64,000 bases of DNA, taken from Malus domestica. Its lineage: Eukaryota > Streptophyta > Magnoliopsida > Rosales > Rosaceae. Where the stretch lies: positions 937,501-1,001,500 of the forward strand of contig NC_091676.1 of the NCBI RefSeq assembly GCF_042453785.1, read 5' to 3'. The position numbers were made by a program, and so were the translations under genes. Each line of letters starts with the position of its first letter. The stretch's first letter is position 1. Below are positions 4,116 through 28,599 of the stretch, piece by piece. Below the pieces are notes generated by a model. It had not been told where the DNA came from. It saw only the letters and a list, made by a program, of their open reading frames with translations, and ran no database searches.

Positions 4116-4550
4116 TTCTCGAATGTGAGTAAAGGTTGGGCATGTTTGCTAGTCTACCTTGCCACGAAGCACAGAGGTTAACACACAGGGACTTTCCAAT
4201 TATCTAGCAGTGATACTGTTCCTTTACCCTTGTGGGTAATAATATGGGGTAGCTAGACCTTCAAAATTTATGTGTCTAAACTTTGTTAGTGCTGTTTCTT
4301 TGCTATTCTTTTACCCGTCTTGGTCAGAGCGATGTAGTGGAAGCTGCAAGCTTCACGTGCTCAACTTTGGCAGAGAACTTTGGCAAAGTTATCTGTGATA
4401 CACATGAGCTACTATTGCGTGTGGGAAGTGGGTGATTGAACAGTAAGACTCATGTGCTTTCTACTTCACCAGAAGTCTTCGACAGAATGCCCATAATTTC
4501 CGCAAAGCTGAGTGTGCGTGTGACAGGTGCTGCCAAGGCTGGAAAAGTAG

Positions 4551-4790
4551 GTGCCTCTTCGATTTCTGAGATCGGCCCTCGTGGTCTCTGAGCAGCCCAA
4601 CTTTTGAGAAAGCAAGCGCCTCTTCGATTTCTGAGATCGGCCTTCGTGGTCTTTGAGCAGCCCAACTTTTGAGAAAGCAGACGCCTCTTCGATTTCTGAG
4701 ATCGACCCTCGTGGTCTCTGAGCAGCCCAGCTTTTGAGAAAGCAAACGCCTCTTCGATTTCTGAGCAGGCGCCTCTTCGATTTTTGAAGC
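4551..4790. repeat. 65-bp tandem repeat, about 3.4 copies, plus a short extra unit
   Basis: Units start with (G/A)(T/C)GCCTCTTCGATTTC at 4551, 4616, 4681 and 4746, period 65 bp, with a partial unit at 4769. They contain GAGATCGGCCCTCGTGGTCT. The array ends just before a TATA-like box and about 135 bp before the ORF at 4927, so a promoter role is plausible. Because 65 is not a multiple of 3 and the unit lacks stops in any minus frame, all three minus frames stay open across it. Confidence 0.9.
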
Positions 4791-4926
4791 TCCGTCGAGT
4801 GCAGATTTTTATAGGGGCTGGCATTAAGTTCCAAAGCACACTTGAATCTCCACCAGTAGAAGCTCCATTCTTACACTTCTAAGATCTTGATTTGTTCGAC
4901 CTCTTCTCTCTTCAACACCTTTGAAA

Positions 4927-5601
4927 ATGTCTGGCCCCTCCGACCGTCGTTTTGACTTGAACCTTGTTGAAGAGGCAGCCCCGCCTTCTCCAGACAACAT
5001 ATGGCACCCATCATTCGTCTCCCCTACTGGTCCTCTTACCGTTGGGGATTCCGTTATGAAGAATGATATGACCGCTGCGGTGGTGGCCAGGAACCTTCTC
5101 ACTCCCAAAGATAACAGACTACTTTCCAAACGATCTGATGAGTTAGCTGTTAAGGATTCTCTGGCTCTCAGTATTCAGTGTGCAGGTTCTGTGTCTAATA
5201 TGGCCCAACGCCTATTTGCTCGAACCCGCCAAGTTGAATCATTGGCGGCTGAAGTGATGAGTCTCAAACAGGAGATTAGAGGGCTCAAGCATGAGAATAA
5301 ACAGTTGCACCGTCTCGCACATGACTATGCTACAAACATGAAGAGGAAGCTGGACCAGATGAAGGAATCTGATGGTCAGGTTTTACTTGATCATCAGAGA
5401 TTTGTGGGTTTGTTCCAAAGGCATTTATTGCCTTCGTCTTCTGGGGCTGTACCGCGTAATGAAGCTCCAAATGATCAACCTCTGATGCCTCCTCCTTCTA
5501 GGGTTCTGTCCAGTACTGAGGCTCCGAATGATCCCCCTCCGATGCCTTCTCTTTCTGGGGCTCTACCGACTGCTGCGACTTCTCCTAAGCAACATTTGTG
5601 A
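4927..5601 (+). CDS. Element-borne ORF, 224 residues, coiled coil and Pro-rich tail
   Basis: The ATG at 4927 opens a 224-residue ORF. Visible parts are an N-terminal MSGPSDRRFDLNLVEEAAPP with a DLNL run resembling an EAR-type motif, and a central heptad-like coiled-coil region around residues 95-150 (QVESLAAEVMSLKQEIRGLK, then a basic KRKLDQMKESDG). The C-terminal 50 residues hold two imperfect repeats of a Pro/Ser-rich unit (NEAPNDQPLMPPPS and TEAPNDPPPMPSLS). I do not recognise a named domain. Its setting in repetitive DNA and its family-like look suggest a protein carried by a non-autonomous retroelement rather than a host gene. The frame looks whole. Confidence 0.5.
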   Translation: MSGPSDRRFDLNLVEEAAPPSPDNIWHPSFVSPTGPLTVGDSVMKNDMTAAVVARNLLTPKDNRLLSKRSDELAVKDSLALSIQCAGSVSNMAQRLFARTRQVESLAAEVMSLKQEIRGLKHENKQLHRLAHDYATNMKRKLDQMKESDGQVLLDHQRFVGLFQRHLLPSSSGAVPRNEAPNDQPLMPPPSRVLSSTEAPNDPPPMPSLSGALPTAATSPKQHL

Positions 5602-5847
5602 AGGCTCTCTCTTGTTTGTTTATTTTGACTCATGTATATGTACATATTTGTAGCTTATCGGGGATATCAATAAATAAGCTTTCCTTCATTTCAACGTATT
5701 GTGTTAAATACACCAAAGCCTTCTTCGCTAAGTTCTTTGAATTTTCTTTTGTTGGAGCTTTGTGAGTGGAGCATGTAGGTTGAGGTAGTGTTCCCTTAAT
5801 TTCCTGAGTGACGAAAACTTCTCGGTTGGAGACTTGGAAAATCCAAG

Positions 5848-8800
5848 TCACTGAGTGGGATCGGCTACATGAATCTTAGAACGCCATTGTGCTCGGTCCT
5901 GTGTCATGTCCTTCGTTAGATCCAAGTACTCTAAGTCTTTTCTTAGGGTCTCTTCCAAAGTTTTCCTAGGTCTTCCTCTACCCCTTCGGCCCTGAACCTC
6001 TGTCCCATAGTCGCATCTTCTAATCGGAGCGTCAGTAGGCCTTCTTTGCACATGTCCAAACCACCGTAACCGATTTTCTCTCATCTTTCCTTCAATTTCG
6101 GCTACTCCTACTTTACCCCGGATATCCTCATTCCTAATCTTATCCTTTCTCGTGTGCCCACACATCCAACGAAGCATCCTCATCTCCGCTACACCCATTT
6201 TGTGTACGTGTTGATGCTTCACCGCCCAACATTCTGTGCCATACAGCATCGCCGGCCTTATTGCCGTCCTATAAAATTTTCCCTTGAGCTTCAGTGGCAT
6301 ACGGCGGTCACACAACACGCCGGATGCACTCTTCCACTTCATCCATCCAGCTTGTATTCTATGGTTGAGATCTCCATCTAATTCTCCGTTCTTTTGCAAG
6401 ATAGATCCTAGGTAACGAAAACGATCGCTCTTTGGTATTTCTTGATCACCGATCCTCACCCCTAACTCGTTTTGGCCTCCATTTGCACTGAACTTGCACT
6501 CCATATATTCTGTCTTTGATCGGCTTAGGCGAAGACCTTTAGATTCCAACACTTCTTTCCAAAGGTTAAGCTTTGCATTTACCCCTTCCTGAGTTTCATC
6601 TATCAACACTATATCGTCTGCGAAAAGCATACACCAAGGAATATCATCTTGAATATGTCCTGTTAACTCATCCATTACCAACGCAAAAAGGTAAGGACTT
6701 AAGGATGAGCCTTGATGTAATCCTACAGTTATGGGAAAGCTTTCAGTTTGTCCTTCATGAGTTCTTACGGCAGTCTTTGCTCCTTCATACATATCCTTTA
6801 TAGCTTGGATATATGCTACTCGTACTCCTTTCTTCTCTAAAATCCTCCAAAGAATGTCTCTTGGGACCCTATCGTACGCTTTCTCCAAATCTATAAAGAC
6901 CATGTGTAAATCTTTTTTCCCATCTCTATATCTTTCCATCAATCTTCGTAAGAGATAGATTGCCTCCATGGTTGAGCGCCCTGGCATGAACCCGAATTGG
7001 TTGTCCGAAACCCGTGTCTCTTGCCTCAATCTATGCTCAATGACTCTCTCCCAGAGCTTCATTGTATGACTCATTAGCTTAATACCCCTATAGTTCATGC
7101 AATTTTGTACGTCGCCCTTATTCTTGTAGATAGGCACTAAAGTGCTCGTTCGCCACTCATTTGGCATCTTCTTCGTTTTCAAAATCCTATTGAAAAGGTC
7201 AGTGAGCCATGTTATACCTGTCTCTCCCAAAACTTTCCACACTTCGATTGGTATCTCGTCTGGGCCTATTGCTTTTCTTTGCTTCATCTTCTTCAAAGCT
7301 ACAACCACTTCTTCCTTCCGGATTCGACGATAAAAAGAGTAGTTTCTACACTCTTCTGAGTTACTCAACTCCCCTAAAGAAGCACTCCTTTCATGTCCTT
7401 CATTGAAAAGATTATGAAAATAACCTCTCCATCTGTCTTTAACCGCATTCTCTGTAGCAAGAACTTTTCCGTCCTCATCCTTGATGCACCTCACTTGGTT
7501 TAGGTCCCTTGTCTTCTTTTCCCTTGCTCTAGCTAGTTTATAGATATCCAACTCTCCTTCTTTGGTATCTAGTCGTTTATACATATCGTCGTAAGCCGCT
7601 AACTTAGCTTCTCTCACAGCTTTCTTCGCCTCTTGCTTCGCTTTTCTATACCTTTCACCATTTTCATCAGTCCTATCCTTGTATAAGGCTTTACAACATT
7701 CCTTCTTAGCCTTCACCTTTGTTTGTACCTCCTCATTCCACCACCAAGATTCCTTTTGGTGTGGGGCAAAGCCCTTGGACTCTCCTAATACCTCTTTTGC
7801 TACTTTTCGGATACAACTAGCCATGGAATCCCACATTTGGCTAGCTTCCCCCTCTTTATCCCACACACACTGGGTGATTACTTTCTCTTTGAAAATGGCT
7901 TGTTTTTCTTCTTTTAGATTCCACCATCTAGTCCTTGGGCACTTCCAAGTCTTGTTCTTTTGTCTCACTCTTTTGATATGTACATCCATCACCAACAAGC
8001 GATGTTGATTAGCCACGCTCTCTCCTGGTATAACTTTGCAATCCTTACAAGTTATACGATCCCCTTTCCTCATTAGAAGAAAATCTATTTGTGTTTTTGA
8101 CGACCCACTCTTGTAGGTGATCACATGTTCTTCTCTCTTCTTAAAGAAGGTGTTGGCTAAGAAGAGATCAAATGCCATTGCAAAATCCAAGATAGCTTCC
8201 CCATCCTCGTTTCTCTCCCCAAAACCATGGCCACCATGAAAACCTCCATAGTTGCCTGTCTCCCTGCCCACGTGTCCATTTAAATCTCCTCCTATAAATA
8301 ACTTCTCCGTCTGAGCAATTCCTTGCACCAAGTCTCCAAGATCTTCCCAAAATTTCTCCTTCGACCTCGTATCCAACCCTACTTGAGGTGCGTACGCACT
8401 AATCACATTGATAAGTTCTTGTCCTATTACAATCTTGATTGCCATGATTCTATCTCCTACCCTCTTGACATCTACAACATCTTGTACCAAGGTCTTGTCC
8501 ACGATGATGCCAACACCGTTTCTCGTTCTCTGTGTGCCCGAATACCAAAGTTTAAACCCTGAGTTTTCTAGATCCTTTGCCTTACTACCAACCCACTTAG
8601 TTTCTTGTAGGCACATAATATTTATCCTTCTCCTCACCATAACTTCCACTACTTCCATAGATTTTCCCGTTAAGGTTCCTATATTCCACGTTCCTAAACG
8701 CATTTTGCTCTCTTGAACTCTACCCTTCTGTCCTAGCTTCTTCACCCTCCCCCGTCTAATAGGATCAAAGTACTTCTTTTGTGTGTCCCGGGTAAAGCTG

Positions 8801-9006
8801 ATAGGAGCATATGCTCCCAAACAACTTTGAGTGGAGTCGTTCGAAAAGAAGTTTCTATGGCCCCCTTGCTCATTTAACACTGCATCCGGGTGCCGATGGA
8901 GATACAGCGACCCTTGCTCACTTATCACTGTGCTCGGGCCGCACAGCGCGCCACTTACGGGTGACGCCCTAGCTTTAGCGCTATTTTGTTCTGGATTCAT
9001 TTTCAT
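5848..9006 (-). CDS. LINE (RTE clade) endonuclease-reverse transcriptase, 1052 residues, open
   Basis: A single open ORF from the ATG at 9006-9004 ([16 protein letters not shown]). Residues of about 100-330 form an APE-type endonuclease/phosphatase fold ([49 protein letters not shown]). The central region is a reverse transcriptase with [47 protein letters not shown] and the catalytic MLFADDIVL. The C-terminus ([33 protein letters not shown]) is typical of plant RTE elements. The protein nicks target DNA and copies the LINE RNA onto it. The usual stop after ADPT is changed to Gln, and a TGA two codons on, at the junction with flanking DNA, ends the frame. No internal stop suggests a fairly young insertion. 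Confidence 0.9.
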
Positions 9007-9047
9007 AAGGATTCGACGTGATCATGGAGTGCCGGCTGTCGACTACC
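5849..9047 (-). mobile_element. RTE-clade LINE, near full length, 3' tail missing
   Basis: About 3.2 kb on the minus strand, with a short 5' leader of roughly 40 nt (9007-9047), one long ORF (5848-9006), and an abrupt end inside the normal 3' terminus. The other copy reads ACTTAGTGGGAAAAGGC then (TTG)n; here homology stops at ACTCAGTG and unrelated sequence follows. An 8-bp hairpin (GACTTGGA/TCCAAGTC, 5831-5849) sits on the junction. Loss of the 3' tail is odd, since LINE integration starts at that end. An 11-bp direct repeat TTAATTGAGCA lies at 1885-1895 and 9048-9058, outside the whole composite. Confidence 0.9.
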
Positions 9048-9629: not shown

Positions 9630-10791
9630 ATGAACAACATCTCTATGGGGTTTTCATGTGGGGATGATTTTGTAAGTCCTCTTTTTCTCTCTCTCACACA
9701 CACATACACTTTTCCATGGGAAATGATTTTGATCCGCAGTCCGCACTCATTTTCTCCTTCTGCGCAGACTTGTTTAGTGTGCGGAAAATCACTTCCTTTT
9801 TTTATCCTTTCCTGGAGTAGTACTCATTGACATGGTTGTTTAATTAGGACGGAGAGGAATGCAAAGCTCCACTTTTATACGAAACGAGGGAGAACCAGCA
9901 CAGCGGCAGCGGGTGCATGGATGTTCGCAATCATCATCGTCATCATATGCAGGTTGAAGTCGACTTCGAGTTTTGGCCGGTAGAGCATCCTCTCGAGCCA
10001 CCGGATGAAGATCGCCCTGTCAAATGCCCAATGCCCGACTCTTCCGTCATTAATGTGAGAAAGTAATTCGATCGATTTCATTTCAGCATCCATGAAAATT
10101 TTCATCTTATATGTAAAATATTATGAATGCTTTCTCGTCTTGAATAATACAATATACTGAGAAATTTCACTTTCAACCCACTTGAACGACAGGTTCGAAA
10201 CTCAGGTGAATGACGCGTTCAAAACTTAGTACAATTTGTCATTGTGTGACACGCTAAAATCGTCCCCCGTTAGAATATAGTCTCGCAAAACAGAAAAAAG
10301 ACGTTTTCTCAGCTGATTAATTCCTTTTTCTTATTATGTTTTTGTTTTGTGTAGATCTTGATGTTATTTTGTTGCTCGAATACATGAACTGAATGGAATT
10401 TCTATACAATAAAAAGCAAAAAGTTGAGGCATGTATTTAACCTCTGGCAGTGTTATATATGCAGATTGATTTTGTCTCATGTAAAATGCATTTACAGGAA
10501 GGAGGAAGGAAGGAGAAAAGGTTCTCAGAGAGCAATAGCATGCGTAAAAGAACAGAAGCATCATCTGCGGCTGCAGCAGCTTATAGCAATCAAGGGTTAA
10601 TCGATCAGACGGTGGTGGCAGTGGCAACGCCGCCTCCTGCTCGACCGGTGCGTAAGAGGCACCACCACACTCTCACCCGCGGCGACTGTATGATATCACC
10701 TCTACGGAGAATGCCACCTCTTCCTTCTCTCCCAACGCAGAGCATTACTGTCTTTCAAATGCTCCAGCAGTTCGACAAGTTCGACTCTTGA
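9630..10791 (+). CDS. Unrecognised conserved-looking plant protein, 180 residues, three exons
   Basis: Exons 9630-9671, 9848-10054 and 10498-10791 join in phase 0 with GT-AG introns. The product starts MNNISMGFSCGDDF; a second Met at residue 6 could be the real start. Exon 2 encodes an acidic, Pro-rich block (VDFEFWPVEHPLEPPDEDRP, then VKCPMPDSSVIN) preceded by a His-rich patch (NHHRHHM). Exon 3 is basic, with an Ala run, a PPPARPVRKRHHHTLTRGDC segment and a C-terminal LPTQSITVFQMLQQFDKFDS. There is no signal peptide or membrane segment, and the basic stretches could be nuclear signals. The WPVEHP...DEDRPVKCPMPDS core looks like a conserved plant family, but I cannot name it. Function unknown. 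Confidence 0.7.
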
Positions 10792-11342: not shown

Positions 11343-14300
11343 TCATTCAAAAAGTGATATACATAGTGCAACTCCCATGCCAAGTATCAATGCAGTTAAT
11401 TGTAAAGCCGTGCTTTTCAACGATGAGCTGCCATTGCTGTTCATTTCAGCAAGCACTCCAGCAACAGCAATGTATATAAATCCACCAGCTGTAAAGCCCT
11501 GAAAAGAGATTCAACAAAGTAAAAAATATGTTTAATTCCGATCACGCAAGCCGAATATGAACCGAATGTTTAATGCAAAACATTCTCGGGCTAGACTCTT
11601 GTCACCTCAATCAAAGATGACCGTCCTGCATTCTGTCCCAAAATCAGAGCCTGCATCAATAGCAACGGATTACTCTCGTTTCAATTATCAAAGATACTAA
11701 AATGGAATAACCCTACAACAAAGACAATACTTTACCATTGCGGTTCCAAGTAGTGCCACAAGTGCTGAGAGAAAGTTGAAGAGCAGAGCTTTAGATACGC
11801 TGAAACCAGACCTTACGAGAATACCAAAATCACCGACCTGAAACAAAGGTAAACCAAGTTATAAACCTCCCAAGAACTAAACAAGAAGAAGACTGACTAA
11901 ATGAGACTGTTTAGCCAGCTAGCTATCAAGACTGCCTCTTTGACATGAGACTGTTTAGCCAGCTAGCTATCAAGACTGCCTCTTTGACATAGGAAGATGT
12001 TGATGGTTAAAATGCAGACCATTACATATTAACGAACAGAGAGAACTCAAACCTCTTGGGGAATTTCATGCGCAAGCAAGAATAGAGTTCTAGACCACCC
12101 ACCAACAGATCCATGAAGCAGGAACGCACTCCCTAAAGCCATCCCATCTGTAAAATTGTGCTGCAGTGGCAATACAAATCTTTCAGTAAATAATCTCTAT
12201 CATGAACCGCATTTTGTTTAAAGAAATACAAGCTTGATTGCAAACAAGAAGTCACATACAACACCATCCGAGAAGAGATTGAGATAGCCAAACACAAGAT
12301 TTGAGGGTGATTGAGTAGTTTCCCCTTTTGCAGACTTGGCCTCAGAAGTGGAATCATTTGCAGCATCTACATCTTGTTTATCATCACTCCCACCAGTCCT
12401 AGTGTTTCTCTGCGTGATGTATATATGGCAATGCTTAAATTGCAGTCTAGTATTTAAAACGTGATCAACAAAATTAGCTTGGGTGCAGAAATCAGATATA
12501 AGTAAGATTCATTCAAGATGCATATAAGCCAGCAGATGTCAAGTCTATGGCCAACATTAAATGAAGATGAAAACACACTCTGAAAGACCAATAAGCCAAT
12601 TAACTGCTTACCTTACGAATATGAGAGTCATGTTGAGTATTTTCGATCAAAGGATCGTTTAAACTATCAGATGCCACTTCTCCATCAGATGTCTTCAGCT
12701 TCCTTCCATCTTTTCCATTGGAAGATTCTGAATGCAAGTCATCGTGAGAATCATTATCATCCTTCAGTTTCTTGCTGTTCTTATGATGATGGTGATGATG
12801 ACCGTGACTCCATGCATTAGTTCCTCCAGAGTTTTCCTCAACATACCTCACTGTCTTTTCTACCAGAAGAAATAATACAATTCCCGCTGTAACAACCAAT
12901 ATAGTACTATTAAAATTCAACTAAAACCCAATCAGCAAGGACATTAACAATGATCAGGTTAAATAACAAGCTCAAAGAAACCAAAAACACCAGAAAACGA
13001 AGGAAGGGGTTACAGCCTACAGAGTCATATGGAAGAAGTGATGTGCAAGTAGAAACATTCAAGCACACAGAAACATACATCACATGTACCTGCCCTCAAT
13101 CACCCGCACAAACACAAATCATGCAGGCACAAAGCATGGTTAAGACAGCATGCAGAACATAGATTAGAACTAAGTACTAACCCAGGACGGATAATCCTAC
13201 TGAAAGATCTTCCAAAGAATGCGAATGTGAATGCTCATGCGAATGAGAATGGGAATGGCCTTCATGGTGGTCATGCGAGTCGGAGTGCCCTCCTCCTGCA
13301 ATTATATAAGATTCCGGTTCAACTGCTAATAAATATAAAAGACAAGCATCTTACACGTAATCATCTATTAAGAAATTATACATTTTCGATTAAGGAAATT
13401 GAAGAGTTCACTTACACACATCATTATAATTTAAAGCATTGGATTGTTATATGCTCTTCGTAAATTAAGATACAAGAACTTAAGACATAACCAAATCCTT
13501 AAAACATCAGATTAGACTGGGTGAAAAAAGATTATATGGGAATAGATTTGTACAGTGTGTAAAGATGAACTAAAAGCTGACAAATTAGTGCAGGCATCAT
13601 AAACTAGTCTCCGATTATTGTCTTACCAAGGGCATGCGGTAATTGATGAAGAAAAGCATCCCCCAACATTGCTCCAGCCTGCAAATGAAGTACAAATTAG
13701 ATTATCAAGTTCCTGTTCCCATCCACATGCTCCAACAATCTATATTGTAGGATACTTAAACCAGGCTAGGCATTGACTTCGAGATACTATTTAATGTCAA
13801 TTCAAGAGAAAGTTCTGTAAAATTATTGAGGCATACTTAAGAGTATACATGTCAAATTGGTCCAAAAGAGATGCAAACCATATACAATTTGATTAGATTT
13901 AAAAACTAGATAAACAGGTCAGAAGAATCTGACCCCAAATATAGCCAACGAATCAACAACTGCCTTGGATGGTTTCCCCTGTACTGCAATAAGCAATAAA
14001 TTCAGTCCTGGTCATTGGTACGGGCTTCTTGAAGCAGAAGTCATCGCCAATGTCAATAAAAAGATTAACTTACAATTGAGTCACTTACCGAACATCACTG
14101 GCAAGATAATCAGGCAGATAAGGGAGGCCATGCTCACCAAAAGCGAGCACCCCAAGGAATGAATCCAGAGACCTATAAACGATGAATAAGAATACAGTTA
14201 CAGCTCACGCATCTTAGATCAGTTCATTTCGTGTGACACAACAATGCATAAGTAATAGAAAGTATCGGAACAAAATAAAGCAAGGGTTAAAAAGAGTGAG

Positions 14301-14877
14301 ACTTGTATAACAGTTATTCAGCAACACAATTCGCACTTTCGACTGCAAAGAAGATTTCAAACCAAACAAGCATTGTGCTTTCACAATCTGTATCAATACC
14401 AAAGCAAAAATTTCCCAGCTTTTGCACTCACCACCACCACTGACTTCTTCAAAATTTCCAATTGTTCAATCCACATACTTAGCAACAAATAATGCACAAT
14501 TCTGAAAAAAACCCAAAAAATGTAAGAGAAATACCAGCAACTGAGAGCTGCAGAGCACCAAAATGCTCGTGATCGTGATCGTGACCGTGATGGTGAAATT
14601 CAAATCCGTACAACTTCATGTCCTCCTCCTCCGCCAATTCCTCGGGAAGCTTCGATCTCGGCAGTAATCTATCCTCCTCCTCGTCGTGGCCGTGGCCGCT
14701 GCCGTGACTGTGGCCGTGGTCCTGGTGGTGGTGGTGCGCATGGCTGCAACCCTGGTGGTGAGTGTGAGGCTCGTGAGCGGCAGATGCAGGGAACCCAGAA
14801 ACAAAACTCAGATCCGAACAGAGCCCAACAACCAAAGCAAGAGCAACCAAGACCAAACCTTTCTTACAAAGCGCCAT
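11343..14877 (-). CDS. IAR1: IAR1-like ZIP (SLC39/KE4) metal transporter, 492 residues
   Basis: Eleven exons, all in frame: 14877-14535, 14172-14089, 13983-13934, 13678-13627, 13295-13182, 12886-12612, 12409-12260, 12160-12053, 11837-11736, 11650-11606, 11498-11343. The product has a signal peptide, a His-rich luminal N-terminus (HTHHQGCSHAHHHHQDHGHS), the VQGKPSKAVVDSLAIFG and GAMLGDAFLHQLPHALG segments, and a second His cluster. A His-rich loop near residue 242 precedes the metal-site helices, HNFTDG (357-362) and HEIPQE (387-392). The C-terminus is hydrophobic. Arabidopsis IAR1 is of similar size; it sets sensitivity to IAA-amino-acid conjugates and is thought to move Zn/Mn between the ER/secretory lumen and cytosol. 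No defect seen. Confidence 0.95.
11901..11989. repeat. Exact 44-bp tandem duplication in an IAR1 intron
   Basis: The unit beginning ATGAGACTGTTTAGCCAGCT occurs at 11901 and 11945 with no difference I can see. It lies in the intron between exons 8 and 9 and must be recent. Confidence 0.9.
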
Positions 14878-14991
14878 TTTCTGAGAAACCCCAATTGTCT
14901 TGTCGGTTAAGATGGGGGTTTTATTGTAAATATCGAATTTAAGGTCGGTAGTTGGTGTAGTAGTTGAAGCCCGTCCGTCGGGAGGGAGGGT

Positions 14992-15099
14992 TTAAGAAGA
15001 AGGACGGCGCTTGCAAGTACCTTCGATGGTCATAACAACAACTGAAACGAAAAAGAGGATGATTATGCCGACTATAATACCGAATGTCACAGCATCCAT
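14992..15099 (-). CDS. 35-residue single-pass membrane peptide: small gene or uORF of IAR1
   Basis: The ATG at 15099-15097 opens a 35-codon frame ending at TAA (14994-14992). The peptide starts MDAVTFG, has an uninterrupted hydrophobic helix of about 20 residues (IIVGIIILFFVSVVVMT, residues 8-24), and ends in a polar, basic tail, EGTCKRRPSS. This predicts a small membrane protein, tail probably cytosolic. The ATG is 10 bp downstream of a long GA tract, in the transcribed sense. The stop lies 114 bp before the IAR1 ATG on the same strand, so the ORF is either a uORF in the IAR1 leader or a separate tiny gene. I know no named homologue. The amphipathic design argues against a chance ORF but does not prove it. 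Confidence 0.5.
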   Translation of the reverse strand: MDAVTFGIIVGIIILFFVSVVVMTIEGTCKRRPSS

Positions 15100-15105
15100 C
15101 CCCGA

Positions 15106-15108
<3 letters not shown>

Positions 15109-15154
<46 letters not shown>
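15109..15154. repeat. CT/GA microsatellite, upstream of IAR1 and the 35-residue ORF
   Basis: A pure (TC)n run of about 46 bp, GA in the sense of the two minus-strand frames. A second short (CT)n tract lies at about 15246-15267. Both probably fall in the promoter or leader. Confidence 0.9.
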
Positions 15155-15157
<3 letters not shown>

Positions 15158-15269
15158 TTTTTCGGATTTTTTATTTTCTTTTTCTTTTATTTTTGTTCTC
15201 GGAATCCCCAGGAGAGGCTCTGACAGCGCGGTCGGCTCTCACTCCACTCTCTCTCTCTCTCTCTCTTCT

Positions 15270-16543
15270 CCCCGCAAGTCCACACTCCACACTCCCTATC
15301 TGGATTGGCCGCTCCACAAGTCCACTACTTTATGTCATATTTGAGTTTGAGAAATGCAATGCTATCGAGTTATTCAAAATTTACTCTTATGGGATTCTTC
15401 AGTTCATATTTTTAATAAAATATTTTATACTATTAGTTTGAGAATTGACGTTAAAATGTGGAATTCGGATTTTTTTCTATTTTGAAAAAGAGGATAACTG
15501 ATGGTAAGCCACGATTATCCACCCATTCGGAAAGCTAAGAAGACTCACAGAGACATTGCAACCTCCCTCTAACCACAAGTCTAGCTTCTACACCAACAGT
15601 GAATTTCGAACAAAAAACCTCCAGTTTTTAATTTGAAGGAAGTCTCACAATCCACTCTTTACCCCTGGACTATCAGCACGTGGTTGTAATGTTTTATTTG
15701 AGCCATATGAGTTCTCCATCGTGGATTGTGTGAAACTCGCAATGTTTGAAACTGCTTTTAGAAGTAATGACTGTTTTGAGACAACTAAAAACGTTTCTAC
15801 TATCATATGTCAAGAAATTTACATGCTTACAATAAAAGCATCTCCAACAAATGCTTCTTAAGGAAGCAGTCTCGAACCAGCCATTCTTTACTGCGATTAT
15901 TTGGTTTCCGTTTTTACTATGCGATGGTTGGCAGGAAATTCACAAAATCCCATCCTTCCCTTCCCGCAGAGCAGCATGAACTACTAAAGATTCTACAAAC
16001 AGGCATCTCCAATCAAAACACACTAAAGATTCACCCACATGAAATGGAAAGGTAGCCACCGGAGTGACGAGCCAATATTTACACACGAAAACCAACCGTG
16101 AAACACAAGCACGATCCACAATTATACGAAATGGCGAAACACTCTACTGTAACACTTCAGTTGCTCTCTTATATTGACAAGCAAAGACTTCTAAGTTAAA
16201 CAAGGGGTAATTCCAAGACTACGAGTACTAATTACCTAGGCAGTAGGCAGTAGGCAGTAGGCAGAGTCACCTCTCTCTTCCCATGTAAAATCCTAACAAA
16301 TTGCAATCATAAAACTAGTAGTGTACAACTCCCTCCATATTCACAAGGTTTCTGCTGCTTTTAGTGAGTGTAAGTTCATCTAGCTTGTAACAGCTGCTGC
16401 CTGTTCCTGCACCAAATTCCACGTCTAAATCAAATAAGTCGAGCACAAGATTCATCGGAACTTGGGGACTACGGCTGATATGATATAAACAGTGGGAAAA
16501 TTAAGTTGATGGTAGCACTACGTACCATTTTCAGTGTTTAAGA
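15270..16543. other. Intergenic between IAR1 promoter and the MAP65 3' end
   Basis: No supported gene. A short (GGCAGTA)n tract of about four units lies at 16239-16264. The rest is probably the distal IAR1 promoter and the 3' UTR of the MAP65 gene. Confidence 0.55.
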
Positions 16544-19500
16544 TCAATCATGAGGGGGGGAGCCCAGCACAGAACCACAAACAGACGTGGAATATGACAT
16601 TGTATCTTCTTTTGGTATGGACACAAAGTTCAGGGGCGTTGTCGACATTCTTCTCATTTCCTTGAAATATCCATTTTGGCGCCCAGAGTAAGATCGAGGT
16701 GTCAAGAGCTCAGGAGTTCCACTGCCAACTGAGTTCCGATGAGGAGTTGGAGGCACGGATCCATTCCCATTTGAACGATATCCATTTGGCTTCCTAAAGC
16801 TGGTGCTTTTCCTAGGACTAGGTTTAGACCCATACATGGCTTCTTTCTCTGTAAGGAGCAGATCTTGGAGCTTCTTTTGGTTCTATAAATGGAAAGAATG
16901 TTAAAGACATCATCCATATGACCACTTTTTTCTTTTTCGGTAACTCATATCAAAGCATTGTTAGGCCATAATTAAACAAAACCAATTTCTAAATTCATTT
17001 GGACAATCTACTTTATTGTCATATCATTTGATAACAATTCACAACAGTTTAGTTAAATTACCCTAGATTTTTTCTTATCCTCTTCTTTTTGCCGCCTGCT
17101 CACTTTGTAATCCTCCAGTATCGACACCAGTCGTGCCTGAAAATATTGTTATGGAAGTTTAAGACAGGCGGACACTACACCAAAAACACATCCACGAACT
17201 TTTGTTGCAAAAGTAACTCACCCCATCATAAAGAAATAACATCTTCCTCTCGTCTTCCCAGGCCAGAGTTTTGTGTATCAGATTGTCAACAATTGCTGGA
17301 AAGAGACCTTGTTAGCTCTACCACTGTTGCATCCTCAGACAAAGAGGCGAATTCTAAAGAAAACAATACCTGGAATTTTGGTTACAGTCACTCTAGCTCG
17401 TTCTGCACGTTTGAGGTTAATATGGGCACCTCTCCCTGCACTGTACCGGTTATCATCCTGGAATTCAATTAACAAATTTGTATAAAATGCGTAAAAACTA
17501 CAAGGCATAATAATCAACCACGGAAACTAAAAGATGGATTTTTGTTTGTGTGTGTATCAAAACTTAAATCCTAATTATGATTCCCTTTCATATCATGGCA
17601 TGTGGAAAGGCTACCACAACTTCTCAAAGCTTACTTGATTGTAGTCTTCGAGCCAATTTTCCTCTTCACAAGCAAATAACCACCGGTCTATCCTATCCAT
17701 TATTTCTTTCCGGCTCATAGCCTCTTCTTTAGCTTTGACTATCTGTGCTTCTATGTTTGCCAGAAGTTCAGAAGGATCTACTAGACCTGAACAAAAACAA
17801 CAATATTTTTCTATAAGAAACAAAAAACAATATTTATACGTCTTTCTGTGTCAAATATATTTAACCTAAGCATCTAATTAACTGGCTTTGAGACAAAGTG
17901 AAGTTTCATACCCGAATCTATCAATGCATTTGATTTCTCAGCAGCTGTGCTTATATCAGGTTCAATATGAGCCATTCTGCATACTTCCTCCAGTTCTGCC
18001 CGCCTTTTCATAACAAGTTCTTTCATTCTGCTTGCTTTCAATTCAGCGAGTCTCTCCACTTCTGCCGATACCTGTCAAAGAGATGACAAGGAATTTGATA
18101 TTCAACTTGCAAAAAATTAAAATTAGAAGATGTGGAGATTGATATTCAACCTGTTCAATAATTTCTGTTGAAAGAAGGCCTGGTTCCGTAATTTCTGCTT
18201 CTGAAATTCCAAAAATGCGAGTAACCCTTGAAAAGTTATTTCTTTCTTCTTTTGACGAGTCCATCAAATTCCAAAGTTCAAAAAGTGACGCTACAATATC
18301 TTTTAGCTGCATTTTGTAACAGGATTATACTTCAGATTCCAAAGTCACAATCAAAATACATGTACAGTATGATCACCGATTACCTTATTGATTCGAGCTT
18401 TTCTTTCAGTTTTCAACTTGAGAATAGTCTGTTCTAGGCCTTCCAATGTGCTGTTGCTGATGTTTGTAGACTGTTCAGTGTTTGCCCTGTGCAAGCTAGG
18501 ATCCACTTCACCCACAGTGTGGCCAAAATCCAAGCCAAGCACACCGCAAAGAGAATGAACCTCGTTTACATGTCCCAAAACCTTGTTGAGGCGGTCAGAC
18601 TGCAAGCAAATAAAGTATATTCTACATATCAGAACATACAAAACTGCAGGATAAAGCAATCCGTATCATTCCAAGGCATCCAAATGATGCAAACATTTCA
18701 CGAGGAGTTCAAATTCATATTATGATATAATTACCTTCTCTTTTTGAAGAGTGTGAAGATGTGCTTGATATTCAGTTAGCTTTCTAACCGACAAGTCATG
18801 TTCGTCTAGGGTTAACGAACTGACTGGAGCATTGTTGAGATGGTTGTATCCAGATATCTCCCCACTGATCTTCTCAATTTGTGCCTTTATATCTGAAAAT
18901 TGCTTCATCCTCTCCTCTTTCTTCACTCTTAGATCTTCTACAAGTGGTGCCACAGATGCAAGTTTTTCTTTCAAAGAATTTGCTCGCTTCTCTCTCTGGA
19001 TCTGAAGATTTTATTTTAGAATCAGATGAACAAGTCAAATAGCAGAGGCACATACAACAGGTCACAGAAATCGGTTAAAAATAGTTCATACTTTTGTTAT
19101 GTGATATTGTGAGACAGAGAATGGAAGTTTCTAAACATTTTGTAAACTCATCGTGGAAACAGAAAAAGTGGAAGAAACAAATGAATCACCAAGCAGAAAG
19201 TTTTTACAAATCATTAAATGGCCCAATTGCAAAAGAGAGCAAACATAGGAGGAGAACAAAAAATTCAAGGATGAAGCCAAGAAATGGTCAAAAGATTATC
19301 ATTACCAAAATGACAAAGTTCCAATGGATTCCTTACCGGTGAATTAATATTAAGTTCCCCCAGAGAAGCCATGAGAGTTGCAAGCTCAGCTTCTTTGGCT
19401 GCAACAGACTGATGAAGGCGTGCCTTGGCATTGGCAGCTTCGTCAACCTTTCTCCTGTAAACATCTAAGCATTCCCTCTCCAACTCTAACAACATGCGGT

Positions 19501-20698
19501 CTTGGTCTGCTATGCTCTCACCAATGTCATTCCATATTTGCTGCACTCGTTGAAAAAGCCATACACAAAATCAATTATTGTGGAAACACGACTCAGTGGT
19601 TTGCAGTATCTTTCTCCTTTTCAACAGGGAAAGAATAAGAAACTTGCAACACAGACTGGGGTCATGAACATCTTATTGACACAAAGAAACCAAATGCTAA
19701 GAGGTAAAGCAAATTCAATCAGAAAAACGAAACATCACACACCACACATACTTATCTTCCTCCCATGAATTATTCATCATAAAAAATTGCAGAGTAGAAG
19801 CAGATGAGAAAGGTAAAATCCAAAATTCAGATGGAGAAAGAAACACATTTAACTATGGAAACTTGAAAACAAAGTCCATAACCAGAAGTTCTATCAACTG
19901 CATTCCCTCTAACTGCCATCCCTGGTAACAATACCAGAGTCTAACACCAATCCAAATTAGGAAGAACCAAAAGACAGTCAACTCTCATGCGCTCATACCC
20001 CTCCTAATGCGTGCAACCATTTACGAAAAAAGCTACAAACAAGTTAACAGAACCCTGGTCTAAAAAATCCCAATAGAATAAAGATTACAAAATAAACACA
20101 TTGTTCTGGAACTATATAATTCAGGAAAACACCCGCCTTTCACCAGACAAAAAAAAAACAAGAAAATCAGTACAAAACAGATAACCCATCAAATTTGGTA
20201 TATGATTTTGCAAAGAAATTCAAGAGATTGGAGAAGTCTAGTTGAAGGAAAAAATAAAGAATCGGTAAATATTCAAACACTAATTTATAGAAACTATGCT
20301 CAATTCACACAGTAAAGAGAAAATGGTAACTGGGTTTCAAAATTATTGTGAACAGATTGCATTTCAGGGGACCTTTTACCTTAAAAAGGTGCAAAGACCT
20401 GTACTTTCTTTGTTACTTCAAAGAACCCAAAAAAGACCCCAAATTTATAGCTCCACTAGGCTCATCATTATTACACATTTTAGAGAATTAATCACTGCTT
20501 TCTTTTGACGGAGCAACAACAACTTAAAAGTTGCTAAAAACCCCAATCATTAAAAGGGCCTAGGTGAAAAGCAAATTTTCAAGCAGCAGTAGCAGAAGAA
20601 GAAGAAAAAAGTTGAGGGTTTACCTGAAGTTCCTTGAGTAAAACATTGCAGCTGGCGCTGGTACGGACACCGATGGTAGGACTCCCAAGAGCCAGCAT
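16544..20698 (-). CDS. MAP65-6: MAP65-6/7-type microtubule-associated protein (MAP65/Ase1/PRC1), 601 residues
   Basis: Eleven exons in frame: 20698-20624, 19540-19337, 19001-18735, 18599-18384, 18306-18151, 18071-17912, 17786-17635, 17457-17370, 17295-17222, 17136-17062, 16882-16544. The protein starts [20 protein letters not shown] and continues as the long coiled-coil rod of the family ([20 protein letters not shown], then [20 protein letters not shown]). The conserved microtubule-binding segment follows ([40 protein letters not shown]). The Ser/Pro-rich tail has [17 protein letters not shown] and [12 protein letters not shown], with sites fitting CDK/MAPK control. MAP65 proteins cross-link antiparallel microtubules. 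The tail and the YSAGRGAH block match MAP65-6 and MAP65-7 better than MAP65-1. No defect seen. Confidence 0.93.
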
Positions 20699-21362
20699 TT
20701 TGCACAGATCTCTCTCTCGCTTACTTTCTGTTTCTCTCTCTAGAAAGTGAAGTGAAAAGCAAGTTTCTTGGTGGGTTTTGAAGTAGGCAGAAAAACCAGA
20801 GAACCCCAACAAAAATTGAAGCCAAAAGGTTGAAATTTGGAAGACTTACAGAAGAGAGAAGAAAGAAGGAAGAGAAGAGAATAGAGAGGGTTTAATAAGT
20901 GCTTTTTTTGTAAGTCAAAAGAGACCAAGAGACCAAGACTCAGTTGGGCATGTCTCCATTGCCTCAAACAACCTGAGTTCTCCTAGATCTGAAGCAATTC
21001 TCTTCAGACTTTTGCTGCCAAAGCTTGCTCCTTTAGCTCTTCTTTTCTCTGCTTTTTTCAGATTTTTCAAGAAAATGTGAGAGACCAAGAAGAAGCAAAG
21101 GATCTCTGAGATGGGTTTTGAACGGAACGGGAAAACAAAAGAAAAAAATAGGATTAAACAACAACAGGGAGAGAGAGAGAGAGAGGATTAGGGTAAAAGG
21201 TTGAGACTTTAGTGAAAGAAAGAGAAAATTATTGGCAATGGACTTACTATTTAGTAATAACCAGAAAAGAAAACCATCTTTCTCTCTTTATGGGGCGCTT
21301 GAGGTTAGGCTAAAATGCGCCTAGTGTGTAGCAGGTGATATCAATCATCATCTGCCTAAACA

Positions 21363-21393
<31 letters not shown>

Positions 21394-22231
21394 GAAGTGA
21401 GTGTGTGAGCTCACAAGTGTCTCTCTCTCCGTCTCTGGAAGTGTGTTAGAGCTCACGGAAAGGGATTCTCTCTTCTATTAAATCCATTCAATCACTTAAT
21501 ACAGATATTTAAATTTTAATTCAACAACTAAAATTATTATAATTTTTAAAAAAATATTATATTTATAACTGTTAGATCAAATTTTAAAAACACAGATTAA
21601 TAAATTAGATGGAAAAAATCCGGTGATATCCTTTCCAAAGCTCACGAGTAGAAAAAGTACTGCATCAGCTTCTGCGCGTGGAGTTTACTCTCGAAAACAG
21701 AGATGGAAAATTGGGAAATTGAGAGAGAGAAACCCACAGTAATCAACCTCAGTAGTTAGCTGTTTTTGATGGTGATATTTAGCAATTAATTATGTCCTCT
21801 TTTTACTATAAAACTAATTAGCTTTTGAGCATATTTATACATATTTTTTCACTTCTCATATGTTTTTATTATTTTTTGTTCATTAATTTTTATTAATTAA
21901 TTTGATACTAAAATTGAAAATTAAAATTAGTGTACGGGAGGTTAAAATAAGTGTTGGATAACAACGTTACTTAAGTAATTAATGTGCAACTGTTCTTATA
22001 TGTGTGCTATATTGCGTTGCTCAGCACCAAACTTCTTATCTTCCAATAGAAACAAGCAAAATAGAAAAGGATGGGAATATTGCTTTTGGGGTTTATTTTT
22101 TCCCTTCATAATGTAGTTTTCAAGGGTTCGGCTTATAAATTGATGGTTTCACTTTCACCCACAAAAAGAAAACAAGACAAGCACATCTCATGTCTACATG
22201 TATCTATCTACTGCCATTTCAACAATTTTAT
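20699..22231. other. MAP65 leader and promoter region, then AT-rich intergenic DNA
   Basis: Contains a (CT)n tract at 21363-21390 and GA-rich blocks at 20840-20890 and 21170-21186, typical of a 5' leader/promoter. No ORF worth calling. Confidence 0.6.
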
Positions 22232-22386
22232 AGGGAGAGATTATATTCACACATTCTAAATTACTTATTTCACATCTTTTTAATTTTTTAATATTTTTTA
22301 CACACCACTAGCACTTGATAAATAAATATTAAAAAATTAAAAGGGTGTAGGAGAAGTAATTTGGGATGTGTGAATATAATCTCCCT
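22232..22386. mobile_element. MITE with about 66-bp inverted arms
   Basis: The left arm begins AGGGAGAGATTATATTCACA and runs to TTTTTAATATT; the right arm is its near-perfect complement ending GAATATAATCTCCCT. Together they form one long hairpin. A TTTAT repeat flanks both ends and may be the target duplication. Confidence 0.8.
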
Positions 22387-22419
22387 TTTATAAGTTAAAC
22401 CGAAAAGTCCAAACCAAAA

Positions 22420-22580
22420 AAAAAAAAAAAACTTTAACGAAAAGCTCCCGGTATTGTTCACTTTAATGAAAAATCATATTTGTACACTAAAAAGTAAATC
22501 ATGATACTATTCACTTTACCCTTTATTTTTTCCTTATCGTTAAAACTCAAAATTTTCAAAATATTTTCATTAGTTTTTCT
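22420..22580. repeat. Dispersed repeat, copy 1 (ACTTTAACGAAAA family)
   Basis: Starts AACTTTAACGAAAAGCTCCC and runs through CATGATACTATTCACTTTAC and CGTTAAAACTCAAAATTTTC to CATTAGTTTTTC. A second copy at about 25478-25622 is clearly alike along its length. A poly-A run precedes copy 1 and a poly-T run precedes copy 2. It is non-coding, and no clear terminal inverted repeat was found. It may be a SINE-like or MITE-like element. Confidence 0.65.
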
Positions 22581-22609
22581 GAAAAAAAACACATCTCATA
22601 TATATATAG

Positions 22610-23010
22610 GTCCTTTTTGTAAGGTGATCCCCATTTTCTGAAAAAAAATGGGGATTAGGTTTGAGACCCACTCAACATTTAACTTCAACGATCCAAACCG
22701 TCTATTTTGTAAGTCTCGTTTCATAGATCATCCTTACAAAAAATCAATTCAATCTGAAATCATTTGCTTATTTAACTATCAACATAAAATTTCATTGGCT
22801 CTTATATAACAAATTATTCGTTAATTTCTTTGAACTCAATTAGATATCTTAAACATTTCCGATTTGGCCCATACTTTGTAAGGATGATCTATGAGGTATA
22901 ACTTGAAAAATAGACAATTTGGATTGTTAAAGTTCAATATGGTGTGGATCCCACAACTAATCTCTATTTTTATAAAAAAAAATTAGAAATCCCTTCCCTT
23001 AAAGATTCCC
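22610..23010. mobile_element. MITE of about 400 bp with long inverted arms
   Basis: The block near 22660-22740 (GAGACCCACTCAACATTTAA, then ATAGATCATCCTTACAAA) recurs as its complement at 22875-22955. Copies of CCCCATTTTCTGAAAAAAAA-type sequence mark the left end. It is flanked by TATATA on both sides and is non-coding. Confidence 0.65.
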
Positions 23011-23301
23011 TATATATATTAAGCCTCAAGAATGTCTAAAGATTGCAGGAACAAACATAGTGAAGGTAGTTCCAGTTCCATTTGGGTACGGATGAGGCAC
23101 CCATAATTATTTTTTTTCTTCTTATACAAGTCTTTAAGTAAAATTTTCACCGAGGAATAAAATCTTATACGTGCTCCTCAATACTTCACTATGACATTCG
23201 GATTAATAATACAATGACCTATGAAAACATTAAAATGAATATGATCATGCTATTATGCTACGATGGGGTGTAGGTAATTCATTCCACTCTAAGCCTCTAA
23301 G

Positions 23302-23487
23302 GGAATATGATTTTCTTCCCTCCTAATCTATCTCCATTTCCATTCCTTCATATTTAAATGGTTGCAATTACACCACGTTTACATCTTGTTTTGAATTTTT
23401 TTTATATAGAGAATAATAAAAAAAATAAGAGTATGAGAGGAGAGGATAGAAAATGATGGTAATAGGAAAGGAGATAATACTACTCGG
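23302..23487. mobile_element. Short MITE with TATAGAGAATAA core, copy A
   Basis: Arms of TTTTCTTCCCTCCTAATCT and GAGGAGAGGATAGAAAATG type are inverted. The core GAATTTTTTTTATATAGAGA is shared with the elements at 57137-57251 and 41229-41449. Near-identical 8-bp flanks CCTCTAAG/CCTCTTAG may be a decayed target duplication. Confidence 0.6.
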
Positions 23488-23489
23488 CC

Positions 23490-25089
23490 TCTTAGGGCAT
23501 ACCTCGAGGAAATACATAATTAACCTATGTAACTAGAGTGAGTCCCATAGGTTTCTTATAATTAGCGGAAAACAATACATCAATGGGAGAATCAATGGTT
23601 GGTACGTCAGAAACACTTACAACAAGTTCCAACTGCCTTTATTATGTACTTGGCGATGATATGAGTAATTATGAGATGGACGCTTTAACTGATCAAGTTC
23701 GTATGGATGCAACATTTGATATAGACTAAGCTTCAAAGTAAATAAATGAACAAATATTTATTTATTACCAAGGCTTAGGTTTGTTGTTTCGCTACTTTAA
23801 GATCTAATTTCAAGTCTTGTTGTTGACAATCTTTTTTTATAGGCAACTGATGCAATTACTGCTCATCGGCAAAAATAATTCAATTTAGATGGCCTTTTGT
23901 GACACCAATGACGATTAGATCGATACATTATTATTTTAAGAGAAACTGTAGACTAAAAAAAAACTAAGACCTCACTGTAAGTCTTAAAAAATGCTTGCGA
24001 TATGTTATGGCTCGGGAAAAAGGTTAGACTGCCCTCCCCCCCAAACTTATGATTACCAATAAATAAATAAATATGCAGCAGTTCTATGTACAGTTAAGCC
24101 TAAAAATAACATAATTAATATGTAAATACATAATTAAAGTGCATGTGCATGAGAATGCGGAACACGTGAGCGTGAGCGTGAGGCTGAGACTTGCATCTAT
24201 AGCTAGGTTAGTTTCGTATTATATTCTCCTATACACGTGAAATTTGTTAATCATAAAATGCATTTTATATATATATATAATTATACACGAAAATACTTAA
24301 GTAAAATGCTTGTGACTTTCGGGAGGCACATGTCTGCTTTGGTTCAAGATTTTTCATTTGTCTAGAAAAAAAGTCCACAGAATATGATTTTGCAGAAGAT
24401 GATGATTCTTCCCCGACAACAATGAAGGAGGAACTGAGAGGATGAGAAATTAGAGCATTTTAATTACATTGTACGTTGTCATTGTAGCATCGTATGATAA
24501 GGATATCATGTCATGCATACAAAAATGTACACATGTAATTAGAATATTAACATGGATACGATGATGGTGCATCTGTATTTTCGTGCTATGAAAATTCTTC
24601 TCGAGAAAAAAAAAGCATGAGAAAGCTATGAGTAAACCTTTTACGTAGGCATCAGATAACTAATACATTACCAAGTATTCATATCTAACAAACAAAAAAT
24701 GATTGACGTTCGATCTGCCTGCATAAATACATATTATATCTCAATTAATAAAATTATCCCCTAATAATTATTGAATTATTAGTCGGTTTGGTGGATTAGG
24801 TTAGGTCCAAAAACATTATCATTCGCTTCAAAAATTTGGTGCTTTTGATTAACAAATAGTACCAAGTATTATGCTATCCTGTAATGGATGGTGATGGATG
24901 CTGTTGGTACCTACCAGCGACCATTCTTAGCTTGAAAGAATGAAGGAAATACTGAACATATACATGGTACTGCAAGCCAAAGACAAAGAAACTATATAGC
25001 TGGCCGTGAAAAATAAAAAACTGGATATGTATTTCATTAATGCCATGCAGGACCCAGCAGTACTGTTTTTCAATATCAATCATAGTCAC
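23490..25089. other. Intergenic, AT-rich
   Basis: Short open frames here (for example at about 24874-25095 on the minus strand) look random in composition and carry no motif. I see no RNA gene. Confidence 0.5.
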
Positions 25090-25295
25090 AGTCACACGGC
25101 GAAGGAGATGAACTTACATCCGCTCAAATACGTACGTATATTATTGTAGCATTCCTAACTAATGAAGCATATCATATATTTTAACGATAAGAGTCACTGT
25201 CACATTATGGAAGAGGCGAACTTATCTCCACTCGAATACATATGTCATTGTAGCATTTCAAATTAATAGTGTGTATCATATATTTTAACGTTCTC
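25085..25295. repeat. Two diverged direct repeats of about 100 bp
   Basis: The segment AGTCACACGGCGAAGGAGAT to CATATATTTTAACG recurs about 107 bp on, as CTGTCACATTATGGAAGAGG to CATATATTTTAACG. It is an old tandem duplication. Confidence 0.6.
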
Positions 25296-25477
25296 ACTTA
25301 ACGTTGCATTATTGATTAAAAACGGCATAGTAAATGCCATGCCATCTTCTTTATCCTTTTTACCAGGAAATTTCTCATGTTAAGTACTGGTCCCTCCCTG
25401 CTACTTGTTTCTCAAACGGGTGGATGATCTCCACAGCTATATCTATATATAGCAACCATTTTTTTTTTTTTGAACTT

Positions 25478-25622
25478 TAACGAAAAACTTTCGGTACTGT
25501 TCACTTTAACGAAAACACATTTTTACATTAAAAAGTCAATCATGATACTATTCACTTTACCCTTTATTTTGTCATTGTCGTTAAAACTTAAAGTTTTCAA
25601 GTCATTTTCATTAGTGTTCCTT
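25478..25622. repeat. Dispersed repeat, copy 2 (ACTTTAACGAAAA family)
   Basis: Second copy of the repeat at 22420-22580, in the same orientation: AACTTTAACGAAAAACTTTC, CATGATACTATTCACTTTAC, CGTTAAAACTTAAAGTTTTC. It lies 3 kb from the first copy. Confidence 0.65.
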
Positions 25623-25639
25623 TTTTTTTTTCTCCTACT

Positions 25640-28034
25640 CTCATTACTATTCTTTTACCACTGATTCAATCAAACCCTACTTACACTTTGTCTTTATTCT
25701 GAAATGACAAAAAGATAATTAATTTAGTAGAAAAAATACCAAGATAAATCATGCAGAGGCATTATACATTATAATATAATCATTGAAAGTTGTTTTCCAT
25801 CATTATTTGGTCTACCGATTTCATATATTTAACTTGTTAATTTATATATAACCACCTGCATAATTGCATCATTAAAATAAAGCAGACTAATCATAATTAA
25901 AGTGAGAAATTTCTAAAAACTATATACCATTTTGGGAATATATCTACGAACCTACGCTTTTCCCTTTGTAGAGCTGAGCTGCTGCTCCTTTCAAACCCTA
26001 ATAATCTGTTCACCTGAAAAAACAAAACCCCAATACATCTACAACAATTGTGTAGTCGTGTCGGCGCCGGAGCCGTTGAATAAAGAACACAGAGCCCCCA
26101 ACCCAAAAGAGAAAAAAAGAAAAAGAGAAAAAGTTTGTCATATCGTAAGGATATGAAAAGTAGGAATATAGTCCAAGCGATACTGCTGCCCAAATGAAAA
26201 ATTTTCAGGTTAGAGTTAGACATATGGAATAAAAATAAGGAGAAGAAAAACTTACCAGATGGTCAGAGATTCGTAGAAGGGAGTGATGGTTTTGTATTTG
26301 GATATCGTGAGAGTAATCTGACAAGCTGCTCTATTGAAATTTTTCTCAAACATAAGCCTACAAAAATCTAATACTCCAAATATAAAGGAGTATTTGAGCA
26401 TTTTTTAATCGAAATTTCATCTCAGTCCAAACTTTACGATAACCAAGACTTGCCATATAGAGGAATATGAAAGAAAAAAAAGCCAATTGTTGCTATACTA
26501 AAATATATTGTGTTATAATAAATCAAGTTTCGTTGTTGAAAGAAGAGTAGCATATGTAGCTAAAACACTATTACAATTGGACAAATATCCAATTATAATG
26601 TTCAATTCAATTATTCATACACACATGTCCATTTGTAATTAATTTTTCAACAGCACTCGTTGCTCTTTTTTTCAGAACGAAGCATAATTCTTTATATATC
26701 ACAACCATGTCCACATAAAAGTTGATGAAAAAAGATTATTCATGAGAGACAGTGGGTAGTGGATACCTACCCTTGAAAAACAAAGTGGGGAAGGGAGAAT
26801 ATATATGTGTCATCATATGGTGGTTGGGTGGGGAAGACTTGTACGACTTTGCACTAAATGAATGCGACTGTAGGTTAGTTGCTTCGATTATTAGCCGACA
26901 CTATTAATGCTAATTTGGCCCTAAACATCCCTTGACTTGAGGACGATGTCATGAAGGACTTTGTTAAGGACTAATTACACATGATCATTACAAGTTTACA
27001 ACCGGGCAACGCAAGGACTCAACCATATACATTAAAATCATTAACTCCTCCGATTAGTCTTCTCTTACATTATACATATCACAATATAACAAGAAGAAAG
27101 TTGTGCTAACCGCTTTAGGTTGTGTTTTGTCTAGACGTAGTGTGATAAGGATGAAGAACCTAATAATCAAGACAATTCACTACTTACGAATCATCGACTT
27201 TATTTCTTAGTTTTTGTTGGCCTAGTATGTTACGTTATTACTGAGTTTGTCGTATATTTAATAGTCTATGTATTGGTTTTAGGTTGCCGTCTAGTCGTCA
27301 CGTACCTACCACTACAGCGCCTGTAATTTGCTCGCATACAATGATTGGAAAATAGCAGAAATTCATCATTACTTCAATTCAGGAGTGATAATTATCATCT
27401 TCCTAAATAAAATAAATGTTCAATAAAAACTATTATTAAAGCTCTTGATGTCAACCTTAAGGGGGGCATTATAGTCATTGCATGAATTTGGCTGCCGGAA
27501 GGAAGGAAAGTGCTGAACAAAACAAACAAAAAAACTACACGTTTATACGAATCGAAACTAAAACTTCTTACTTATAATATTACAGAGTGTTTTATTAAAT
27601 ATGATTGAATTTCACAATTCATAGGAAATGCAGAGTAGTTAAAAATACTCAAATGCTCATTGCTCTTGCGGATTGTTATTCGTATCCGAATCCAATCTCA
27701 CTTTACCAAACAGGACAAGAACAACAGAATTGTAAAGCATAAAAACATCGCACACTATACTTAACCCCCAATCCAAGCTTTGCTCATCAATCAAATTTGG
27801 TTGGACAAGGGCTTCAAAATTAAAACTTATAAGAGATGGAAGACTCTGATGTACAAAATTACACGAGTAACGCAACGAGAGATACAAAAGAGAATATATT
27901 ACAGTTACATTAAAAAATTTCTCACAAATTAATCTACAAAAAAGCTAGGGGACAGCTTCACACACTAGTTTGGCATCTCCTTTGGTTTCTAATGGACCCC
28001 AACAAGAGAAGAGAAGAGAAAAATTATTGGATTA
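25640..28034. other. Intergenic, AT-rich
   Basis: No supported gene. The minus-strand ORF at 25897-26223 and its plus-strand shadow have no family-like motif. Unexplained otherwise. Confidence 0.5.
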
Positions 28035-28573: not shown

Positions 28574-28599
28574 CTGCAATCGGAAAAAGTATTTCAATC

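Follow-up and report, generated by a model that had tools for sequence, protein, structure and literature searches.

A predicted membrane micropeptide ORF upstream of an IAR1-like transporter gene in apple

An ORF of 35 codons lying directly before an IAR1-like ZIP transporter gene in apple probably encodes a real, unannotated peptide, because a duplicate of the locus elsewhere in the genome retains the ORF with protein-like changes. The ORF lies in a stretch of 64,000 nucleotides of Malus domestica DNA (hereafter the window; C16:937501-1001500 of a genome of 651 Mb in 19 contigs), and its duplicate is found on contig C13. Support for the peptide comes from the pattern of nucleotide changes and from its hydrophobicity rather than from overall identity. 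We favour, with somewhat better than even confidence, the reading that the ORF is a translated conserved-peptide uORF in the 5′ leader of IAR1 and encodes a single-pass membrane micropeptide. If this is true, a membrane micropeptide under selection in the IAR1 leader would represent an extra layer of control on the transporter. The comparison also illustrates that duplicated chromosomes within one genome can be used to test tiny ORFs that are skipped by gene callers.

The ORF and the duplicated IAR1 locus

Read on the minus strand from its ATG (15099) to its TAA (14992), the ORF encodes MDAVTFGIIVGIIILFFVSVVVMTIEGTCKRRPSS, a peptide of 35 residues (Table 1). An earlier note on this DNA had given the sequence, frame, coordinates and strand exactly; it was also correct in placing the ORF just 3′ of a long GA tract, the 48 bp of which end 6 nt before the ATG, and 114 bp before the start of IAR1 on the same strand, which is the distance of 114 nt from the ORF stop to the IAR1 ATG (14877). 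The start context (GGGG-ATG-G) is strong, with a G (purine) at −3 and a G at +4, and an ATG context as good as this is found in 35 of the 347 ORFs of 25-60 aa that begin with ATG in the window. On the minus strand between 15350 and IAR1, further ATGs were located at 15338 (2 codons), 15095 (2 codons, overlapping the ORF) and 15033 (inside the ORF and in frame), and no ATG was present between the ORF stop and the IAR1 start. The start and stop codons of the ORF both precede the IAR1 ATG and share its strand, and the window copy is in frame with IAR1, its own TAA being the only stop between the two.

We take the downstream gene to be IAR1, the name used in the earlier note, which agrees with known motifs. 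Successive parts of the Pfam Zip profile were matched by four of seven IAR1 exon fragments (E from 3e-8 to 3e-4), each match being below the Pfam whole-protein cut-off, as the queries were single exon fragments; the other three gave no Pfam match. In a search of the genome with 301 bases around the ORF, one other place was found, C13:934499-934766, with 74% identity, and a tblastn search of the genome using the peptide as a query (E up to 10) returned the same two places only among the best candidates scored. Both copies thus found in 651 Mb lie directly before IAR1, and no copy away from IAR1 was found among these candidates. Within the window itself, there is no convincing second copy (next tblastn E = 0.87). 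Downstream of the C13 place lies a second IAR1, to which all 11 exon pieces sought could be aligned, and the aligned parts contain no stop. The flanking blocks are collinear with C13, including part of a downstream ANTH-domain gene, and fit a segmental or whole-genome duplication. Apple gene pairs at similar places on Chr13 and Chr16 include MdTCP12a/b and MdTCP15a/b (PMC9601442).

Table 1. Positions in the window of the ORF and of its neighbouring elements
Feature	Position	Strand	Basis or remark
35-codon ORF for a predicted single-pass membrane micropeptide (putative uORF)	14992..15099	-	Sequence; C13 conservation; predicted helix
GA dinucleotide tract (CT on the plus strand), 24 copies of a 2-bp unit, 48 bp	15106..15153	-	32 nt shorter in the C13 copy
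Spacer from uORF stop to IAR1 ATG, without ATG	14878..14991	-	Contains AATAAA (14925-14920), which C13 retains
Upstream leader/promoter block alignable with C13	15100..15338	-	Alignment ends at 15338
IAR1-like ZIP transporter gene, multi-exon, His-rich	11343..14877	-	Pfam Zip; C13 alignment; exon edges by eye

Nucleotide changes and hydrophobicity of the peptide

The C13 peptide is MDAVTFGIIIGIIVLFFVAVVVVTIEGTCKRRPS, and 30 of the 34 aligned residues are identical with those of the window peptide. The start, frame and stop of the ORF are all kept in C13; the four replacements from window to C13 (V10I, I14V, S19A and M23V) are all conservative and all located in the helix, and the two ends of the peptide, MDAVTFG and TIEGTCKRRPS, are identical in both copies. 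Among the 105 aligned bases of the ORF, 11 differ, with 4, 0 and 7 changes at codon positions 1, 2 and 3, respectively, giving Ka = 0.054, Ks = 0.336 and Ka/Ks = 0.16 for this pair; for comparison, IAR1 in the same pair gives Ka = 0.043, Ks = 0.146 and Ka/Ks = 0.29 (487 codons). Among 20,000 neutral simulations required to stay free of stops, 291 had four or fewer amino-acid changes, and 12 of the 20,000 combined so few changes with a hydrophobicity at or above the C13 level; when the transition bias or the starting copy was altered, 202-363 of 16,441-18,758 open simulations were as constrained. These estimates of selection come from one pair of copies in one genome. The sole gap in the ORF is of one codon, the gaps in the leader are of 8, 6, 2 and 32 nt, and those in the spacer are of 1, 1, 1 and 5 nt. 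The ORF and the spacer are about equally alike between the two copies (identity 0.895 and 0.879, respectively). Keeping the frame is in itself weak evidence, because 4 of the 14 short ORFs that lie outside the IAR1 exons in the aligned blocks, this ORF among them, retain start, frame and stop (ORFs overlapping IAR1 exons by at least 10 nt were left out, with exon edges set by eye). The earlier note had pointed to loss of the frame in close relatives, and to synonymous versus nonsynonymous change, as tests of its proposal of a membrane microprotein or peptide uORF. On C13, whose duplicated IAR1 locus is the closest relative that could be compared, the frame, start, stop and peptide are kept, and the changes in this pair are biased to synonymous and conservative ones; the proposal is supported by this retention and substitution bias.

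The transmembrane helix had been placed at residues 8-24 in the earlier note. A hydrophobic stretch is indeed present, but the best 19-residue span lies slightly earlier, at residues 4-22 (Kyte-Doolittle mean 3.03). A hydrophobic helix is predicted in both copies, and AlphaFold2 with a two-row alignment gives a single helix at residues 3-31 (mean pLDDT 88.5), which, for a short peptide modelled from two rows, serves as a consistency check only. The ORF is unlikely to have arisen by chance, because its 19-residue hydrophobicity is the highest among those 347 ATG ORFs and is equalled in none of 20 Markov-1 simulated windows. Equal hydrophobicity was also found in 0 of 5000 leader simulations and in 1 of 5000 shuffled window pieces. 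When the ORF itself was dinucleotide-shuffled 40,000 times, 11,053 of the sequences stayed open, and 4 of these reached its hydrophobicity. The 3-base periodicity of the ORF was attained by 195 of the 40,000 dinucleotide shuffles; among the 347 window ORFs its share of RNY codons ranks first, and its periodicity only 15th. Membership of a known family was not convincing: the best Pfam match was DUF4407 (E = 0.064, below cut-off) and the best PDB match was a photosystem II protein I chain (E = 0.17). A tblastn search of the peptide against plasmids gave no match, nor did Rfam over 14500-15800 at gathering score.

A shared messenger with IAR1 and competing explanations

Because both copies found sit directly before IAR1, a shared messenger is favoured, and the peptide and IAR1 may be made from the same messenger. 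If this messenger starts between 15337 and 15100, the ATG of the ORF would be its first AUG, in a strong context, and ribosomes would translate a single-pass membrane peptide of 34-35 residues before anything else. The peptide, itself under selection in this model, would have a short acidic N-terminus and a basic C-terminal tail, and by the positive-inside rule the basic tail predicts that the C-terminus is probably cytosolic. A finished chain of 35 residues is still mostly inside the ribosome, so that its insertion into a membrane would come late or after translation, in the manner of tail-anchored proteins. IAR1 would then be reached by leaky scanning, or by reinitiation over the spacer of ~110 nt, and we therefore propose that the uORF lowers and tunes IAR1 output; the peptide might also act in trans. 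Should this hold, the locus would be a plant case in which a single messenger encodes both a transporter and a membrane micropeptide, and editing of the ORF start codon would offer a direct handle on the IAR1 transporter. A bolder version, which we regard as speculative and unlikely, is that IAR1 is a two-protein gene, in which the micropeptide would be a working membrane partner of the transporter or of its compartment, and translation of the peptide would set IAR1 output. The partner could be, for example, a small regulatory subunit or an assembly factor of the IAR1 zinc transporter, and one messenger would supply the transporter and its regulator together.

Protein-like selection on the peptide also fits an independent tiny gene, whose short polyadenylated transcript would end close to the AATAAA in the spacer, IAR1 having a separate start downstream. 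This AATAAA is 66 nt past the ORF stop and is retained in C13. In Arabidopsis, 16 genes were selected, and polyadenylated transcripts of the 5′ UTR were confirmed for 10 of them (PMC6041940), so that here, too, there may be an independent gene or a transcript carrying the uORF alone. However, AATAAA is frequent in the window (164 on both strands), the spacer to IAR1 is just 114 nt in the window and 107 nt aligned in C13, and the genome search, within the best candidates scored, revealed no copy apart from IAR1; we consider an independent gene unlikely. The strong ATG context and the ATG-free stretch from the stop to IAR1 would suit a uORF that captures ribosomes and lowers IAR1 translation whatever its peptide sequence, and most uORFs are thought to act by ribosome capture alone. 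Such irrelevance of the sequence is rather improbable in view of the Ka/Ks of 0.16, the zero changes at second positions and the retained hydrophobicity, all of which argue instead for a conserved peptide.

The T-rich stretch of the ORF could be read as a splice acceptor, or the ORF as part of a longer spliced or read-through N-terminus of IAR1, given the acceptor-like TTTTTCGTTTCAG at 15042, the donor-like GAAG/GTACTT at 15020 inside the ORF, and the frame shared by the ORF and IAR1 with only the TAA of the ORF intervening. We rejected both forms as highly improbable, the former on the finding that the acceptor AG and the donor GT of the window are both missing in C13, and the latter on an additional in-frame TAA before IAR1 in C13, which indicates that a read-through fusion with IAR1 is not conserved. 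Least probable of all is a chance ORF without function, to which the short length and the origin of the evidence in a single genome would lend themselves, but against which stand the simulations of hydrophobicity and periodicity and the comparison with C13.

Related systems and other features of the two loci

The favoured reading, a conserved-peptide uORF, can be compared with the CPuORFs of ESUCA, which are defined by a start and a stop that both lie in the 5′ UTR of the main messenger, a Ka/Ks below 0.5 and significantly below control, usually no fusion with the main ORF, and conservation across three or more orders upstream of the homologous main ORF (PMC7106846). The apple ORF is alike in being a short ORF before a main ORF with peptide-level selection and no fusion: its Ka/Ks lies below 0.5 (291 of 20,000 neutral simulations as constrained), a value from one within-genome pair and not from the cross-order test of ESUCA, and each copy has its own stop, with the additional one in C13. 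It differs in its predicted hydrophobic helix, a feature not discussed in the available text of PMC7106846 (0 occurrences of 'transmembrane'). A comparable arrangement is known from vertebrates, where the leader of SLC35A4 contains the STREMI uORF, which makes a membrane microprotein and represses the transporter ORF that follows (PMC13303939). Unlike the apple peptide, STREMI has 103 aa and resides in the mitochondrial inner membrane, and its translation and repression were shown experimentally (PMC13303939). STREMI/SLC35A4 is the nearest analogue in architecture, with no homology claimed. The leader uORF of AtMHX in plants is much shorter than this ORF and is not known to encode a helix. It is similar in preceding a plant metal transporter, was not found to be conserved in cereals, according to the text available, and belongs to a 5′ UTR that represses AtMHX expression, as stated in the title of a paper cited there (PMC2527020). 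In Drosophila, small ORFs likewise encode membrane helices: roughly one in three annotated smORFs (about 80 aa) has them, whereas the peptides of translated uORFs could not be distinguished from random sequence (PMC4359375). IAR1 is known to affect auxin-conjugate sensitivity, probably via metal balance in the secretory pathway, and as of 2013 its location and substrate were undetermined (PMC3538338). Our literature search found no report joining IAR1 with a uORF, no paper containing any of four fragments of the peptide sequence, and no record of this peptide in the text consulted of a paper that mentions AT1G68100 (PMC3538338). The name IAR1 does not occur in the available main text of four CPuORF papers (PMC7106846, PMC3426882, PMC9305500 and PMC2527020), whose supplementary tables may list it.

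Several other features were observed in the comparison of the window with C13. Just past the 3′ end of IAR1, an ORF in the 49-codon range, MDVRNHHRHHMQVEVDFEFWPVEHPLEPPDEDRPVKCPMPDSSVINVRK (9917-10066, plus strand), has changed little in C13, where its start, frame and stop are retained, and looks like another unannotated small protein, with no match in Pfam; an antisense ORF at 10050-9943 is kept in C13 along with it. Downstream of IAR1 there is also an ORF of 34 aa (10437-10541, minus strand) with start, frame and stop kept in C13 and four residue changes, this retention being the sole point in favour of a gene. Window positions 28343-28736 match C13 at a site some 450 bp before the IAR1 leader block, so that between this match and IAR1 the window has about 13 kb of extra DNA (15338-28343); no long terminal repeats of at least 80 nt frame this extra DNA. 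An intron of the C13 IAR1 holds DNA related to window positions 1904-7658, up to 96.6% identical over 3.6 kb. In the window itself, a frame of 1057 codons from a LINE-type retrotransposon, encoding reverse transcriptase and endonuclease domains, occupies 5848-9021 (minus strand), and two overlapping frames at 4450-4878 (minus strand) carry a repeated NRRGACFLKSWAAQRP-like motif, a degenerate tandem repeat in a mobile-element region. Positions 55968-56465 and 57855-58358 (plus strand) show an annexin domain (E = 2.8e-16) and a weak match to a calcineurin-like phosphoesterase (E = 0.0082, below cut-off), respectively.
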